Positions 3,001-9,918 of a stretch of 64,000 nt of DNA are shown in pieces. The translations under genes and the position numbers were made by a program. The stretch comes from Pantoea sp. Cy-639 (GTDB taxonomy: Bacteria; Pseudomonadota; Gammaproteobacteria; Pseudomonadales; Pseudomonadaceae): assembly GCF_011752525.1 (NCBI RefSeq), contig NZ_VWXI01000011.1, positions 62,001 through 126,000 on the forward strand. Reading direction: 5' to 3'. Below the pieces are notes generated by a model. The model was not told the DNA's origin. It ran no database searches and worked only from the letters and a program-made list of their open reading frames with translations. Each line of letters begins with the position of its first letter. The stretch's first letter is position 1.

Positions 3001-5010
3001 TTCCCCACCATCGAGCGCCTGCTGGGCGAGTTCAAGCGCCTGCTGCTGGCGCTGCTGGACGGCTTCGAGGGCGACGTGGACGCACTGCCATTGCTGGGCG
3101 CGCAGGAGCAACGCTTCCTGCTCGACGACTGCAACCGCACCGAACACGTCTATGCGCTGGAGCAGAGCTATGTCGAGCTGTTCGAGGCGCGGGTCGCCGC
3201 TCATCCGCAGCGCACGGTCGCGCGCTGCCAGGAGGCGTCCTACGACTATGCCGGGCTGAACGTGGCGGCCAACCGCCTGGGCCATGCCCTGGTGGCGGCG
3301 GGCGTGGCCATCGACCAGCCGGTGGCGCTGCTGGCCGAGCGCGGCCTGGCCCTGCTGGGCATGATCGTCGGCAGCTTCAAGGCCGGCGCCGGCTACCTGC
3401 CGCTGGACCCGGGCCTGCCGGCGGCGCGCCTGCAACGTATCGTCGAGCTTAGCCGCACGCCGGTGCTGGTGTGCAGCGCCGCCTGCGCCGAACAGGCGCG
3501 CCTGCTGCTCGATGAAGTGGCCGGCGCGGTGCGCCCGAAGCTGCTGGTCTGGGAAACGGTGCAGGCAAGTTGCGTGGACTGCGCCAACCCAGGCATCCAC
3601 AGCAGGCCGGACAACCTCGCCTACGTGATCTACACCTCAGGCTCCACCGGCTTGCCGAAGGGCGTGATGGTCGAGCAGCGCGGCATGCTCAACAACCAAC
3701 TGAGCAAAGTGCCGTACCTGGCGCTGGACGAGCAGGACGTGATCGCCCAGACCGCCTCGCAGAGCTTCGACATCTCGGTCTGGCAGTTCCTCGCCGCGCC
3801 CTTGTTCGGCGCCACGGTGCAGATCGTGCCGAACGCCATCGCCCATGACCCGCAAGGGTTGCTGGCGCACGTCCAGGCCACCGGTATCACCGTGCTGGAA
3901 AGCGTGCCGTCGCTGATCCAGGGCATGCTGGCGGGTGACCACCAGGCGCTCGACGGCCTGCGCTGGATGCTGCCGACCGGCGAGGCGATGCCCCCCGAAC
4001 TGGCCGCGCAGTGGTTGCAGCGTTACCCGGCGATTGGCCTGGTCAACGCCTATGGCCCGGCCGAGTGCTCGGACGACGTGGCGTTCTTCCGGGTCGACGA
4101 GGCCTCTACCCGTGGCAGCTACCTGCCGATCGGCACGCCGACCGACAACAACCGGCTGTACCTGCTGGGCGAGGATCATGCCCTGGTGCCGCTGGGGGCG
4201 GTGGGCGAGTTGTGCGTCGCCGGCAGCGGTATCGGCCGTGGCTATGTCGGTGACCCGCTGCGTACCGCCCAGGCTTTCGTTCCGCATCCCCATGGCGCGC
4301 CGGGCGAGCGCTTGTACCGCACCGGCGACCTGGCTCGTCGTCGTCCGGATGGCGTGCTCGAGTATGTCGGGCGCATCGATCACCAGGTGAAGATTCGCGG
4401 CTATCGCATCGAGCTGGGCGAGATCGAGGCGCGCCTGCATGAACAGGCGGAGCTGCGCGATGCCGCAGTGGGCGTGCAGGAGGGCGCCAATGGCAAGCAT
4501 CTGGTCGGCTACCTGGTGGCACGCCAGGACGTGATTGCCGATGGCGCGCTGCTCGAACGGATCAGGCAGCGCCTGCGCGCCGAGTTGCCGGAATACATGG
4601 TGCCGCAGCACTGGGGCTGGTTCGACGGCCTGCCGCACAACGCCAACGGCAAGCTCGACCGTAAGGCCTTGCCCGTCATCGACATCGGCGGTCGACACGG
4701 CCAGGACTACCTGGCGCCGCGCGATGAGCTGGAGCAGACCCTCGCCGGTATCTGGGCCGAAGTGCTCAAGGCCGAACGGGTCGGGGTGCGCGACAACTTC
4801 TTCGAACTGGGCGGGCACTCGCTGCTGGCCACGCAGATCGCCTCGCGGGTGCAGAAGGCGTTGCAGTTGAACGTGCCACTGCGGGCGATGTTCGAGTGCA
4901 GCACCGTGGAGGCGTTGGCCGAGTATGTGAGGGGGTTGCAGGACAGCGCGCTGGACACGGACAAGGTCGATCGGCTGAGCGACCTGATGGCGGAGCTGGA
5001 GGCGTTGTAG
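1..5010 (+). CDS. pvdL: Pyoverdine chromophore NRPS PvdL, C-terminal part (5' end outside window)
   Basis: The reading frame is open from base 1, so the gene starts upstream; 1669 codons are visible. Domains in order: end of an A domain (A10 motif NGKLDRR, about 70-90); T domain (GGDS, Ser codon 241-243); epimerization domain (HHLVVDG near 770, NYLGQF near 1430); condensation domain (from about 1780, HHILIDAW near 2180); A domain ([11 protein letters not shown] near 3630, YRTGDLARR near 4315, NGKLDRK near 4650); T domain (GGHS, Ser codon 4819-4821). No thioesterase follows; the protein ends MAELEAL. This A-T-E-C-A-T ending matches PvdL, whose third module epimerizes Tyr and whose fourth adds Dab. 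The Stachelhaus positions of the last A domain read DIWELTADDK, which I associate with 2,4-diaminobutyrate. PvdL builds the acyl-Glu-D-Tyr-Dab chromophore precursor in the cytoplasm and passes it to the next NRPS, consistent with no TE. The domain reading is firm; the gene name is inferred from architecture plus context. Confidence 0.9.
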
Positions 5011-5836: not shown

Positions 5837-6667
5837 TCATTTTCCTTGTGGTACAGGCGCCTCGGCGCTGTCGAAGGGTTCCAGGGCGTGACGCAGGCTG
5901 GCGCGGGACAGCTCGCCCAGGTGGCTGCCGACCAGACGTCCGTCGGCGTTGTAGAACAGGGTGGTGGGCAGGGCCATGGAGCCGACCTTGCGCGCCAGTT
6001 CGCCGGTGCCGTCGAACAGCACGTTGGCCAGGTTCAGCCCGGTGGTGGCCATGAACGTGCTGACGTTTTCCGGGGTTTCTCCCTGGTTGACGAACAGGAA
6101 GGTCACATGAGGGTAGTCGCTCTGGGCCTGTTGCAGCACCGGCATTTCGCGTCGGCAGGGCGGGCACCAGGTGGCCCAGATGTTGATCACCAGCGGCTTG
6201 CCGCGGTAGTCGTGCAGGGCCACGGCCTGGCCGCGGCTGTCGCGCAGGGCCATCTGCGGCAGTTCGGTGCCTTTGCTGTAGAGGTGGCTGGCCAGGCTGG
6301 CGAGCCCCCAGAACAGCGCGCCGCTGACCAGCGCCCAGCCCAGCGGCCGGCGCAGGCCCGGGCGTCTCCAGCCCTGCCACAGGGTGCCCAGGACGATGCC
6401 GAACAGGCCGCCCCAGAGCAGGAAGCCACCGTCGCGGATGTCGATGACCTGCAGCGGATCGTCGCGGTACATCGGCCAGTAGGCAAAGACGAAACCCAGG
6501 CGAGCGAACAGCAGGCCCAGCAGGAACAGGTTGAACAGCGCCGACTCGGGGTTCTCGCCGCCGCGCTTGGCCACGCGCCAGCCGACCAGGCTGGCGATGC
6601 CCAGGGCGGCGAGCAGCAGCAGGTGGTTCAGGGCCATGGTCAACGGCCCCAGGGTGACGGTCAGCAT
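5837..6667 (-). CDS. TlpA-like thioredoxin fused to an N-terminal multi-pass membrane domain
   Basis: 276 residues. The first ~135 residues contain about four hydrophobic segments, with a central GGFLLWGGLFG that resembles the core of prolipoprotein diacylglyceryl transferase-type membrane domains. The C-terminal ~140 residues are a TlpA/ResA-type thioredoxin with the active site WCPPC (context WATWCPPCRREMPVL) and a cis-Pro loop (ALPTTLFY). The likely role is a membrane-anchored periplasmic thiol-disulfide reductase that accepts electrons from DsbD2 or passes them to DsbG. The start ATG overlaps the dsbD2 stop in TGATG, so translation is probably coupled. The thioredoxin assignment is firm; the Lgt-like label for the membrane part is a judgement by eye. 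Confidence 0.85.
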   Translation of the reverse strand: MLTVTLGPLTMALNHLLLLAALGIASLVGWRVAKRGGENPESALFNLFLLGLLFARLGFVFAYWPMYRDDPLQVIDIRDGGFLLWGGLFGIVLGTLWQGWRRPGLRRPLGWALVSGALFWGLASLASHLYSKGTELPQMALRDSRGQAVALHDYRGKPLVINIWATWCPPCRREMPVLQQAQSDYPHVTFLFVNQGETPENVSTFMATTGLNLANVLFDGTGELARKVGSMALPTTLFYNADGRLVGSHLGELSRASLRHALEPFDSAEAPVPQGK

Positions 6668-8385
6668 CAGCCTTGGCTCCTGGTCTGGGCCCAGTGTTGC
6701 AGGAAGGCGGCGGCATCCACCTCGCCGGTGATGCGTCGGGCACGGCGCTCGTCACCTTCGGGGCCGATCCACACCAGGCTGGGCGGGCCTGGTACCTGGT
6801 AGCGACGCAGCAGTTCGCGGCTGGCCGGGGTGTCGGCGGTCACGTCGAGGCGCAGCAGGTGCACGCCAGCGAGGCTGGCCTGGACATCCGGCCGGGCGAA
6901 CACCTGTTTTTCCATGACCTTGCATGACACGCACCAGTCGGCATAGTAGTCCACCAGCACCCATTGGCCATTGGCCTTGGCGGTCTCCAGCTGGCGTTGC
7001 AGGTCGGCTGGGTTGTCCACCGTGGTGAAGGCGTCGTGGCTGCTGCCTGGCGCCGGGCCCGTGGCTTGGCCGACGAAGGGCTGCAGGGGTTGCCAGAGAT
7101 CGTTGCCACCGGCGGCGGCACCGACCAGCAGCAGGCCGCCCCACAGGGCGCCCAGCAGGGGCACCGCGCGCAAGGCGGGCAGGCTGTGCAGCGCCGGCCA
7201 GGCGGCCCAGCCCAGGGCGATCAGCCAGGCGCCGGCCAGGGCCAGCAGCAGCGCCTCGGGCAGCAGGCTGCGCACGGTGTACAGCGCCATGGCCAGGAAC
7301 ACGAAGCCGAACACGCCCTTGACCCGGTTCATCCAGGCACCTGGGCGGGGCAGGAAACGGTTGCCCAGGGTCACCAGCAACAGCAGCGGCACGCCCATGC
7401 CCAGGCCCAGGCTGAACAGCACCAGGGCGCCTTGCAGCACGTCGCCGCTCTGGGCGATGTACAGCAGGGCGCCGGCCAGCGGCGCGGTCATGCAGGGGCC
7501 GAGCAGCAGGCCCGACAGCGCGCCGAGCAGCGCCGCGCCGTACAGGTTGCCGCCACGGGTACCCCGGCCGGCGCGGTCGAGGCGATCGCGCAGGGTGGCA
7601 GGCAACTGTAGTTCGAAGGCGCCGAACATCGGCAGGGCGAGGAGCACGAACAGCGCTGCCAGGCTGCCCAGCAGCCAGGGTTGCTGCAACCAGGCCTGCA
7701 GGCTGGCACCGAGCAGCGCGGCGACCACGCCCAGGGCGGCGTACACCAGGGCCATGCTCAGCACGTATACGCCGGCCAGCAGCCAGCCGCGCCGGGTGTT
7801 GGCGCCGTTGCCCAGGACCAGCCCGGCGAGGATCGGCAGCATGGGTAACGAGCAGGGGGTGAAGGCCAGCAGCAAGCCGAGGCCGAAGAAGGCCAGCAGA
7901 CTCCAGGCCAGGGTGCCTTGCTGCAGGCCGCTGGCCAGGGCTTGGTCGCTGGCCTGGGCGGGCGCCTGGCTGGCGACAGTTTCGCCGCCGAGGGCGATCG
8001 GGGTGGTCTGTGGCGGGTAGCACAGGCCGGCGTCGGCGCAGCCCTGCCAGCCCAGGCGCAGCTCGCCGCTGGCGCTGGCAGGCAGCAGCAGCTCGAGTTG
8101 CTGACGGTAGACCGCGCTGTCGCCGAAGAACTCATCGTGGTGGTTTTGTGCCTGGGGCAGCGCGGGCTGCTGGTCCACGGGCAGACCGTCGAATTTGAGG
8201 CGTTTCTGGTAGAGGTAGTAGCCGTCCTGGATCTGGAAATGCAGGCGCATCTGGCCATCGGGCAGGCGCTCGTGGGTCAGCACGAAGGCCTGGTCGACTG
8301 GCAGGAAGTCCGGTTTGACGGCAAAGGGGTTGGCCTGGAGCGGGCCGGCGAGCAGGAATGTCAGGAAGAGCAGGAGAACACGCAT
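6667..8385 (-). CDS. dsbD: Thiol:disulfide interchange protein DsbD (DsbD2-type), transmembrane electron transporter
   Basis: 572 residues, the usual DsbD length. A signal peptide (residues 1-18) is followed by the periplasmic alpha domain with its cysteine pair in WQGCADAGLCYPP. The beta domain has about eight membrane segments, with the conserved cysteines in FTPCSLPMLPIL and GPCMTAPLAG. The C-terminal gamma thioredoxin domain has WCVSC (context YYADWCVSCKVM). DsbD carries electrons from cytoplasmic thioredoxin to periplasmic DsbC/DsbG-type partners. It is the first gene of the dsbD-tlpA-dsbG operon. The operon starts at a repeat-filled intergenic region and is divergent from a two-component pair that probably controls it. 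Confidence 0.93.
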   Translation of the reverse strand: MRVLLLFLTFLLAGPLQANPFAVKPDFLPVDQAFVLTHERLPDGQMRLHFQIQDGYYLYQKRLKFDGLPVDQQPALPQAQNHHDEFFGDSAVYRQQLELLLPASASGELRLGWQGCADAGLCYPPQTTPIALGGETVASQAPAQASDQALASGLQQGTLAWSLLAFFGLGLLLAFTPCSLPMLPILAGLVLGNGANTRRGWLLAGVYVLSMALVYAALGVVAALLGASLQAWLQQPWLLGSLAALFVLLALPMFGAFELQLPATLRDRLDRAGRGTRGGNLYGAALLGALSGLLLGPCMTAPLAGALLYIAQSGDVLQGALVLFSLGLGMGVPLLLLVTLGNRFLPRPGAWMNRVKGVFGFVFLAMALYTVRSLLPEALLLALAGAWLIALGWAAWPALHSLPALRAVPLLGALWGGLLLVGAAAGGNDLWQPLQPFVGQATGPAPGSSHDAFTTVDNPADLQRQLETAKANGQWVLVDYYADWCVSCKVMEKQVFARPDVQASLAGVHLLRLDVTADTPASRELLRRYQVPGPPSLVWIGPEGDERRARRITGEVDAAAFLQHWAQTRSQG

Positions 8386-8511
8386 GTCGACGCCTTGGTA
8401 GAGCTTGGGATGGTGGCATGCTGGCCTTGGCTTATTAACGGAAGGTTAACCGGGGGAAGCAGATTGGGCGAGGGTGGGCAGGTGTCTGGCGATAGTCTGT
8501 GGGGGCCTGTC

Positions 8512-8574
8512 AGATCGAGCGCCGCCCGCGCGGCGCATCGCGGGCTATCGCCCACTCCCACATTTGTTTCGGGC
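8512..8574 (-). repeat. Left 63-bp inverted repeat containing a REP core
   Basis: This segment is the reverse complement of 8989-9051 with a single mismatch (near 8565-8566, opposite the A run at 8994-9000). It contains the REP-like core GTGGGAGTGGGCGATAGCCC on the minus strand plus a GC-rich hairpin GCCGCCCGCGCGGC. With its partner it brackets the 142-bp tandem array. Confidence 0.9.
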
Positions 8575-8606
8575 CAATCTCTCCTGTGGCATTGCCTGGT
8601 CCGCCT

Positions 8607-9030
8607 TGTTGGCATGGAGAGGTTTCAGCGCGGGCGCTGCTGGCGCTTCGCCTGGCTTGAGGCATGCACCAAGGCGCACAGCGACAACATCACATGACTG
8701 CATCGCCCGAAACAGATGTGGGAGTGGGCGATAGCCCGCGATGCGCCCTGCTGGCATGGCGAGGTTTCGGCGCGGGCGCTGCTGGCGCTTCGCCTGGCTT
8801 GAGGCATGCACCAAGGCGCACAGCGACAACATCACAGGACTGCATCGCCCGAAACAGATGTGGGAGTGGGCGATAGCCCGCGATGCGCCCTGCTGGCATG
8901 GCGAGGTTTCGGCGTGGGCGCTGCTGGCGCTCCCCCTGGCTTGAGGCATGCACCAAGGCGCACAGCGACAACATCACAGGACTGCATCGCCCGAAAAAAA
9001 TGTGGGAGTGGGCGATAGCCCGCGATGCGC
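8607..9030 (+). repeat. Tandem array of a 142-bp unit, about three copies, each with a REP-like core
   Basis: The motif GGCATGCACCAAGGCGCACA recurs at 8661, 8803 and 8945, exactly 142 bases apart. A partial unit precedes the first copy (from about 8607), and the third is cut at the right inverted repeat. Each unit includes GTGGGAGTGGGCGATAGCCC (about 8718, 8860 and 9002). The copies are nearly identical, pointing to recent duplication or gene conversion. It is not a CRISPR array: units are too long and have no variable spacers. Confidence 0.92.
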
Positions 9031-9051
9031 CGCGCGGGCGGCGCTCGATCT
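8989..9051 (+). repeat. Right 63-bp inverted repeat containing a REP core
   Basis: Partner of 8512-8574, ending in the GC-rich palindrome GCGCCGCGCGGGCGGCGC. Its left half coincides with the REP part of the third tandem copy, so array and inverted repeat share sequence. Confidence 0.9.
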
Positions 9052-9234
9052 CAAGAGCGCTACAAATCTTCCGACGAGCATGCTCGACCACACCACAAAA
9101 CCTCCAACAACCCCCTGTTGCCCCCCACATCCCCTTATCAACAATCCCAAACGACGCACCCACCGAAAAGGTCCATAATCCCCCCTTAATCACCACCCTG
9201 TGCAATGCCCGCATCCCACCCCGAGGACTCCCCC

Positions 9235-9918
9235 ATGCACGTTCTGCTCTGCGAGGACGACGACCTGATCGCCAGCGGCATCTGCGCCGGCCTCTCGGCC
9301 CAGGGCCTGACCGTGGACCGGGTGGCGAGCGCTTCGCAGGCCCGTCAGATGCTCCAGGCCGCGCAGTTCGACGTGATGATCCTCGACCTCGGCCTGCCCG
9401 ACGAAGACGGCCTGAAACTGCTGCGGCGCCTGCGTCAGCAAGGCGAGACCCTGCCCGTGCTGGTGCTCACCGCGCGCGACGCCGTCACCGACCGGGTCGA
9501 CGGCCTGCAGGCCGGTGCCGACGACTACCTGCTCAAACCCTTCGACCTGCGCGAACTGGCCGCACGCCTGCACACCTTGTTGCGTCGGGTCGCCGGGCGC
9601 GCGGTGAATGTCATCGAACATGGCCCGCTGTGCTACGACCCGAGCAGTTGCGCGGCGACCCTGGCCGGGCAACCGGTGGACCTGTCGCGCCGCGAGCAGG
9701 CGCTGCTCCAGGCCTTGCTGCAGAACCCCGGGCGGGTGCTGTCCGGCGAGCAGCTCAAGGACTGCGTCTACGGTTTCAGCGATGAAGTCGAGAGCAACGC
9801 CCTCAACGTGCATATCCACCACCTGCGGCGCAAGCTCGGCAATGGCATCGTCGAGACCGTGCGCGGGCTCGGCTACCGCCTGGGCCCTGCGCAGGCGCCC
9901 GGAGAGGCCGTCTCGTGA
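9235..9918 (+). CDS. OmpR-family response regulator (DsbR-like)
   Basis: 227 residues from ATG 9235, preceded by GAGG (9223-9226) at 8-base spacing; an in-frame ATG at 9205 lacks a comparable site. The receiver domain shows the acidic pair in CEDDD, the phosphoacceptor D51 in ILDLGLPDEDG and K101 in LLKPFD. The C-terminal half is an OmpR/PhoB winged helix (LSRREQALLQAL, VHIHHLRRKL, VRGLGYRL). It overlaps the sensor kinase gene by 4 bases and is divergent from the dsbD operon. In P. aeruginosa the equivalent pair PA2479/PA2480 (DsbR/DsbS) controls the dsb genes in response to copper, from memory; the same role here is inference from synteny. Confidence 0.93.
   Translation: MHVLLCEDDDLIASGICAGLSAQGLTVDRVASASQARQMLQAAQFDVMILDLGLPDEDGLKLLRRLRQQGETLPVLVLTARDAVTDRVDGLQAGADDYLLKPFDLRELAARLHTLLRRVAGRAVNVIEHGPLCYDPSSCAATLAGQPVDLSRREQALLQALLQNPGRVLSGEQLKDCVYGFSDEVESNALNVHIHHLRRKLGNGIVETVRGLGYRLGPAQAPGEAVS

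Follow-up and report, generated by a model that had tools for sequence, protein, structure and literature searches.

The spacer between dsbD and a divergently transcribed response regulator gene in Pantoea sp. Cy-639 (GTDB family Pseudomonadaceae) is occupied by a 540-nt block of inverted and tandem repeats, which could represent an assembly artefact, a chance cluster of REPs, a regulatory structure, or a copy of a mobile element. We addressed this question in the window, a 64,000-nt stretch of contig NZ_VWXI01000011.1 in whose numbering the block spans 8512-9051, and by comparison with the rest of the draft genome and with other Pseudomonas genomes (L numbers denote loci and G numbers genomes). 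The initial annotation, made from the letters alone, had described 63-bp inverted repeats one base apart, each holding a REP core and a GC palindrome, around about three nearly identical 142-bp units with direct REPs, and our measurements agreed with it on every point. The arms (8512-8574 and 8989-9051) mismatch at 1 of 63 positions, with the first 54 positions perfect and 6 mismatches by 77 nt, and both join the palindrome AGATCGAGCGCCGCCCGCGCGGCGC to a REP. The left arm consists of the palindromic core (8512-8536, + strand), a REP identified by the REP-class pattern with its GTGGGAG head pointing inward (8537-8562, - strand), and an inner part beginning with TTTGTTTCGGGCCA (8563-8588, + strand; from sequence and alignment); the palindromic core of the right arm lies at 9027-9051 (- strand), and both cores are nearly invariant in the 30-sequence alignment described below. 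The tandem array between the arms (8602-9031, 3.0 copies, 96% matches) resolves, by tandem-repeat detection and unit comparison, into + strand units at 8602-8743, 8744-8885, and 8886-9027, which agree pairwise at 137, 132, and 137 of 142 positions. The second unit is preceded by a junction of GATGCGCC with CTGCTGG starting at 8740 and the third by one starting at 8882. The REPs of the first two units (8717-8742 and 8859-8884) have the same orientation as the right-arm REP (9001-9026), into which the third unit merges.

Outside the arms, members of the family to which the block belongs carry a degenerate inverted repeat, which we defined from the pooled arms of 78 element copies and whose information fades over ∼40-50 bp without a sharp end. 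In the window copy, this outer repeat is weakly recognisable at 8474-8511 on the left, the right flank (9052-9089, beginning with caagagcgctacaaatct) is closer to the family outer consensus, and mutual pairing of the flanks has been lost. As a single strand, the 540-nt block folds with a z of -11.5 relative to shuffles, none of 100 of which was as good; its excess over the ∼250 bp of a canonical copy comes from the array. An assembly artefact is unlikely because the units are non-identical and because, elsewhere in the genome (L010), the same junction recurs in another array that has diverged in sequence. We conclude that the block is a genuine, orderly feature.

The block lies between dsbD on its left (6667-8385, - strand; NCBIfam NF001419, E 7e-177) and an OmpR-type response regulator gene on its right (9235-9918, + strand; PF00072 and PF00486; the best NCBIfam models are QseB/PmrA, below their cut-offs). 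The regulator is accompanied by a QseC/PmrB-like kinase (below equivalog cut-offs), and beyond dsbD are a TlpA/ResA-like gene (below the cut-offs of those models) and then dsbG. The home genome is assigned to the P. putida group of Pseudomonas by the relatives of its DsbD. The proposal that the block could influence the divergent promoters found no support here: a simple scan of 8380-9240, a weak one that also misses the promoters of both genes, returned no promoter- or terminator-like site, and the gene-proximal motifs of element-free relatives are, by eye, retained on either side of the block. A terminator reading was dropped.

We sought further copies, as the initial annotation had recommended; its proposal would have fallen had all close strains lacked the repeats and the genome held no other copy. 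A search of the draft genome listed 79 matching stretches, from which 20 regions were fetched and the elements read with 60 bp of flank; 19 contained arms or arm parts (L028, a lone 26-bp match with no arm, was excluded), so that the block has 18 further counterparts in its own genome and that refuting condition does not apply. Two-armed copies follow one plan: from the outside inward come the fading outer inverted repeat, AGATCGAGCGCCGCCCGCGCGGCGC, and a REP, then TTTGTTTCGGGCCA or a sequence related to it; a non-coding middle follows, and beyond it lie the same parts in mirror image. Canonical copies are non-coding and ∼250 bp long, with a middle of ∼100 bp and arm cores ∼226 bp apart; in one of them (L013) the 63-bp stem is perfect and folds with a z of -17.5. 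Other copies depart from this plan, with different middles (L022 and L025), three left arms and no right arm (L020), or only part of the element (L010, L018, L019, L026, and L027). As expected for repeats, six of the 19 loci are at contig ends. A rough ORF call placed seven loci between tandem, three between divergent, and three between convergent genes, with six uncalled, and the element overlapped an ORF call by 26-51 bp in three. A search of a plasmid collection gave no match. The Pseudomonas sRNA P15 lies near one copy (L014:2094-2212), and a C4 antisense RNA, possibly from a prophage, lies close to another (L024:1599-1685).

Across 199 Pseudomonas genomes sampled, 32 contained the 24-mer arm core (at most 1 mismatch), with up to 178 sites in a genome; a reversed-pattern control gave 0. 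We parsed 85 inward arm pairs, some of them nested, from home, named, and relative loci, and the element was found in three forms: 13 copies are solo palindromes of 30 bp, others are short copies whose spacers differ, and the third form is that of ∼250 bp, of which G072 frequently has a 221-bp variant. The 13 solo palindromes lack REPs and, as a group, keep the outer repeat; they match the remnant expected from deletion between arms, although the order of events may be the reverse. The ∼250-bp architecture recurs in ten genomes, with 81% mean column identity over 30 aligned copies; these were picked for an orientable middle from 50 copies of 215-260 bp, and in the other 20 the middle diverged too far for orientation or showed only weak similarity. 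By its sequence, the block is one copy of a family dispersed in the Pseudomonas putida group.

The comparison of empty sites that had been suggested for sister strains could be made at the dsbD spacer. From 80 named loci, we set aside five with <400 bp upstream of dsbD, which left 75, and then 17 in which no regulator start was in reach. The spacer lacked the core in 56 of the 58 loci with the divergent pair and held a two-armed element in the other two (L030 and L031), so most named relatives are without the element at this site. The spacer measures 161-323 bp in 50 of the core-free loci and 445-913 bp in six, and 501 bp in the two filled loci. An element also lies upstream of dsbD in L036, which is nonetheless among the 17 loci without a reachable regulator start, and four of the five short loci (L035, L046, L060, and L063) have a partial element before dsbD at the contig start. 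L030 and L031 share a site and have mutually inverted middles, as would be expected from recombination between arms. The spacer after dsbG is a hot spot (near 9300-9600 in L030-L068, near 3835 in L046): at roughly one position, some species have REP pairs of differing kinds, and others a solo palindrome or a copy of the element.

The initial annotation had also suggested looking for a REP-associated tyrosine transposase (RAYT). The home genome has a single RAYT (L109), which has no such core alongside and falls outside the clade of arm-associated RAYTs described below. RAYTs are present in 178 of 199 genomes and thus nearly universal, so their co-occurrence with the element is uninformative, and we rejected it as evidence of a link. 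We also examined RAYT flanks. The 20 element-bearing genomes gave 41 Y1_Tnp matches, 30 of which were fetched as loci and 11 left unfetched; a core (≤2 differences) lay within 350 bp of the RAYT in seven of the 30 and in the remainder of the fetched flanks in none of the 30. This proximity has a P of 3e-7 under random placement but 0.057 when sites are confined to intergenic DNA. In L193, a single RAYT, matching NF047646, is bracketed by two inward arms, and in L192 the RAYT is bracketed with the second arm degraded; the other five (L194, L195, L203, L211, and L213) have complete or solo elements beside the RAYT with no clear bracketing. The similarity extends beyond the arm cores: with 50 nt of arm trimmed, the L192 unit is 88.5% identical over 87 nt to the home copy L024 (E 5e-28), and the inner arm of L193 is 84-91% identical over 32-38 nt to at least 16 copies among the best 60 of 63 matches. 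Six of the seven arm-associated RAYTs belong to one supported clade of nine (Fisher P 0.0009), outside which are the arm-associated RAYT of L194 and that of the home genome; three of the nine clade members have no core with ≤2 differences. Core sites also occur in genomes without a Y1_Tnp match (32 sites in G096 and five in G076). A RAYT gene flanked by the ends of the element thus exists in relatives and is absent from the home genome. Beside the 5' end of the home RAYT (L109:1900-2048; G000:C15:48723), a different stem-loop is fused to a REP in the order CGAGCGCTTTGCGCTCG-ATCGC-REP; the join of CGAGCGCTTTGCGCTCG and ATCGC has three exact genomic copies and perhaps marks a second composite family.

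Taken together, the dispersal of the family, the 56 of 58 dsbD spacers that are core-free, and the RAYT genes with the same arms support the suggestion that the block is a non-autonomous mobile element. We consider it likely that it is a copy of a dispersed non-autonomous element derived from a RAYT unit and here internally tandemised. In the ancestral unit, composite arms of constant palindrome and REP would have flanked a RAYT gene encoding a Y1/HUH transposase; in the ∼250-bp form, the arms and inner flanks would have been retained and a non-coding middle of ∼100 bp would have replaced the gene. The RAYT would act in trans on the arm hairpin when the DNA is single-stranded, and the 142-bp repeats would reflect replication slippage or a template switch, placed close to or at a shared CGCC next to the hairpin. 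Because the RAYT of the home genome is outside the arm clade, the family there may depend on a non-cognate enzyme for its mobility, or it may no longer move. The loci compared yielded no instance of transposition, no excision read, and no duplicated target.

These same ends could instead belong to a MITE of a classical (DDE) insertion sequence; its true end would be the long outer inverted repeat, and the REPs would have been gained later, inside that repeat. Several arms in G130 do extend ∼110 bp to GCATGGGTATCTACACATCT, which has 67 sites in that genome (≤3 mismatches) and three in 11 others, and the outer repeat kept by the REP-less solo palindromes would also fit. Nevertheless, no target duplication was seen by eye and no sharp end is common across genomes, no DDE gene came to notice between the arms on reading through the loci, and it is RAYT genes that have the same arms and inner sequence instead; we regard this origin as improbable. 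An autonomous partner with the G130-specific end was also considered and rejected, as no gene-bearing pair was identified among the pairs read.

The arms are composite, and we asked how their two parts vary. The palindrome is nearly invariant in the 30-copy alignment, with a variable REP stem. Among 66 element copies, of which five with an unreadable REP were excluded, the two arms had an identical REP stem in 43 of 61, compared with a mean of 23.3 and a maximum of 32 in 2000 shuffles of arms within genomes. Stems of different elements were identical in 47 of 195 comparisons within a genome versus 61 of 1635 between genomes. One unusual REP with a ∼15-bp insert has 60 sites in G130 (≤2 mismatches) and was not found in the eight other genomes searched. 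Of its G130 matches, 20 were fetched as loci, nine in element arms and 11 as free REPs; the nine arms belong to eight elements, with the insert in both arms of one, in one arm with an insert-free partner in six, and in the single recognisable arm of one. We infer that REP modules in the arms are swapped with free REPs.

In some genomes, the REP in most sampled arms is that flanking a resident RAYT. Exact agreement was seen in G190 (seven of 10 sampled arms), G127 (14 of 18), and G072 (nine of 12), and a difference of one base in five of 10 arms in G174 and in the home copy L021; the match was two of 14 in G057 and none in G104, and the flanking REP of G189 was unreadable (RAYTs of G127, G057, and G072 were sampled in part). 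Among 50 REPs listed in G190, there are types commoner than the arm type; REP abundance alone therefore does not account for what the arms carry. These observations raise a more tentative possibility, which we rate as somewhat doubtful, that the element is modular: the palindrome and outer repeat would constitute its identity, and the REPs would be overwritten arm by arm from the host, often from the resident RAYT's, so that the element is re-adopted by a new transposase in each host. A REP that differs by host over a constant palindrome and matches between the arms of a copy appears to be new; in the literature searched, mostly open papers, we found no description of host-dependent REP exchange inside a constant arm, and a text search for the 17-mer core found no paper. 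A fixed outer tag across species, with a differing REP inside it, offers a constant reference for counting and dating REP replacements, which bears on the spread of REP/RAYT systems and on the turnover of REP types between species.

The same data bear on whether the block is simply ordinary REP/BIME clustering, that is, chance REPs beside an unrelated palindrome with an array formed by slippage. REP families are known, and REP-class sites are abundant in the home genome (374 versus 42 for the reversed pattern), but chance clustering does not explain a single ∼250-bp architecture in ten genomes or arms that match beyond the permuted maximum, and we disfavor this reading as very improbable. Least credible of all is a functional structured RNA or cis-regulatory hairpin under selection and mobile in looks only, since the strong hairpin, the two-sided changes at 14 of 68 predicted pairs, and the intergenic position where genes are callable are set against presence that differs between species at compared sites, the lack of any promoter or terminator match, Rfam matches at the element in none of 10 element-bearing loci (at the gathering threshold, only PrrF, P15, C4, and a tRNA nearby), and the location of the two-sided changes, which fall within REP modules, at module edges, and in the inner arm alongside, where exchange of modules and correction between arms would put them.

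Returning to the RAYT-derived element, the window copy differs from canonical copies by its array, and the home genome seems prone to internal amplification of the element. TRF reported tandem repeats in eight of 19 home loci (units of 37 to 393 bp) versus one of 60 relative loci (P 2e-5), a comparison in which the relative loci were partly chosen by paired arms and so biased against arrays, and which omits repeats seen by eye in L010 and L017 of the home genome, as well as the left-arm doubling in relatives L144 and L146. The complete list of 35 sites in G174 comprised seven two-armed copies (all with 227-228 bp spacing), seven solos, and seven lone arms; among 100 of the 141 sites in G127, we saw by eye two multi-arm arrays and no two-armed copy at 250-1000 bp spacing. 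The unit junction of the block occurs twice at L009, the block's own locus, and once at L010, and at no other of the 159 loci scanned. The L010 array, which contig C63 may continue, is at a different site and has its own sequence differences, and because an array with the same junction exists at this second site, the element was probably already tandem when it was copied or moved. Such a readily tandemising genome offers a way to test hairpin-driven amplification and the collapse of copies to solo palindromes. Two other home loci contain arrays of their own: ∼11 tandem 59-bp REP-bearing units within one arm pair at L025:2001-2758 (G000:C3:57038-57795), and a four-left-arm array with a ∼374-393-bp period ∼1.2 kb from a PrrF sRNA gene (L015:2017-3432 and 4679-4829, respectively).

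We compared the element with known systems, for which the published accounts were available in part. E. coli BIMEs also repeat REPs in ordered clusters; BIME REPs alternate in orientation (PMC2817692), whereas the inner REPs of the block are direct repeats inside one inverted-repeat frame, and the BIME reading was dropped. The MITE-like Pseudomonas repeats R0 and R2 (Silby 2009, PMC2718517) likewise lie between genes as non-coding inverted-repeat elements, and their ends are found around a transposase gene as well, but they are 89 and 110 bp long and come from P. fluorescens, and composite arms are not among the features given for them in the part of that account available. The element is short (∼250 bp in canonical form) and non-coding with terminal inverted repeats, as are MITEs, although no target duplication was seen by eye and its arms lose definition outward or vary with lineage. 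REPINs have been described together with ordered tandem REP arrays, the latter in SBW25 (Bertels and Rainey 2011, PMC3116915). Like a REPIN, which is thought to be RAYT-dependent, the element pairs two inverted REPs into one hairpin; unlike published REPINs, which in our reading have no fixed sequence outside the REPs, its REPs are fused on the outside to a near-invariant palindrome, its cores are separated by ∼226 bp in canonical copies, and its REP is variable beside a constant palindrome. RAYT-REP pairs have been tabulated, including a P. entomophila REP with a GGATTCATCC stem (PMC2817692), and this stem is also found in element arms of G127, G104, and G190. The terms conversion and replacement do not appear in the available part of PMC3686654.

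The closest likeness is to P. putida and P. fluorescens RAYTs in whose ends a degenerated GTAG-1 REP is joined to an unrelated stem-loop, an arrangement reported to occur by the hundreds in genomes of these species; examples are P. putida ppf 607 and P. fluorescens pfs 4255, and the terms TIRtron and TIRYT are used for such units (PMC3733652). The same composite ends are given for tnpAREP subclass 2.5 (PMC6006769), so that composite REP and stem-loop RAYT ends were noted in 2013 and again in 2018. The element shares with TIRtrons and TIRYTs a REP and second stem-loop in inverted repeats flanking a RAYT, a likeness matched by description and not by the letters of the stem-loop: in our family the REP is fused to a stem-loop in inverted repeats, and a RAYT with the same ends is found in relatives only. 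It differs in its internal arrays, solo palindromes, and host-dependent REP exchange, which are not mentioned in the available portions of these two accounts. We conclude that the composite RAYT-linked kind is already known and that the block is a variant of RAYT-linked REP elements.
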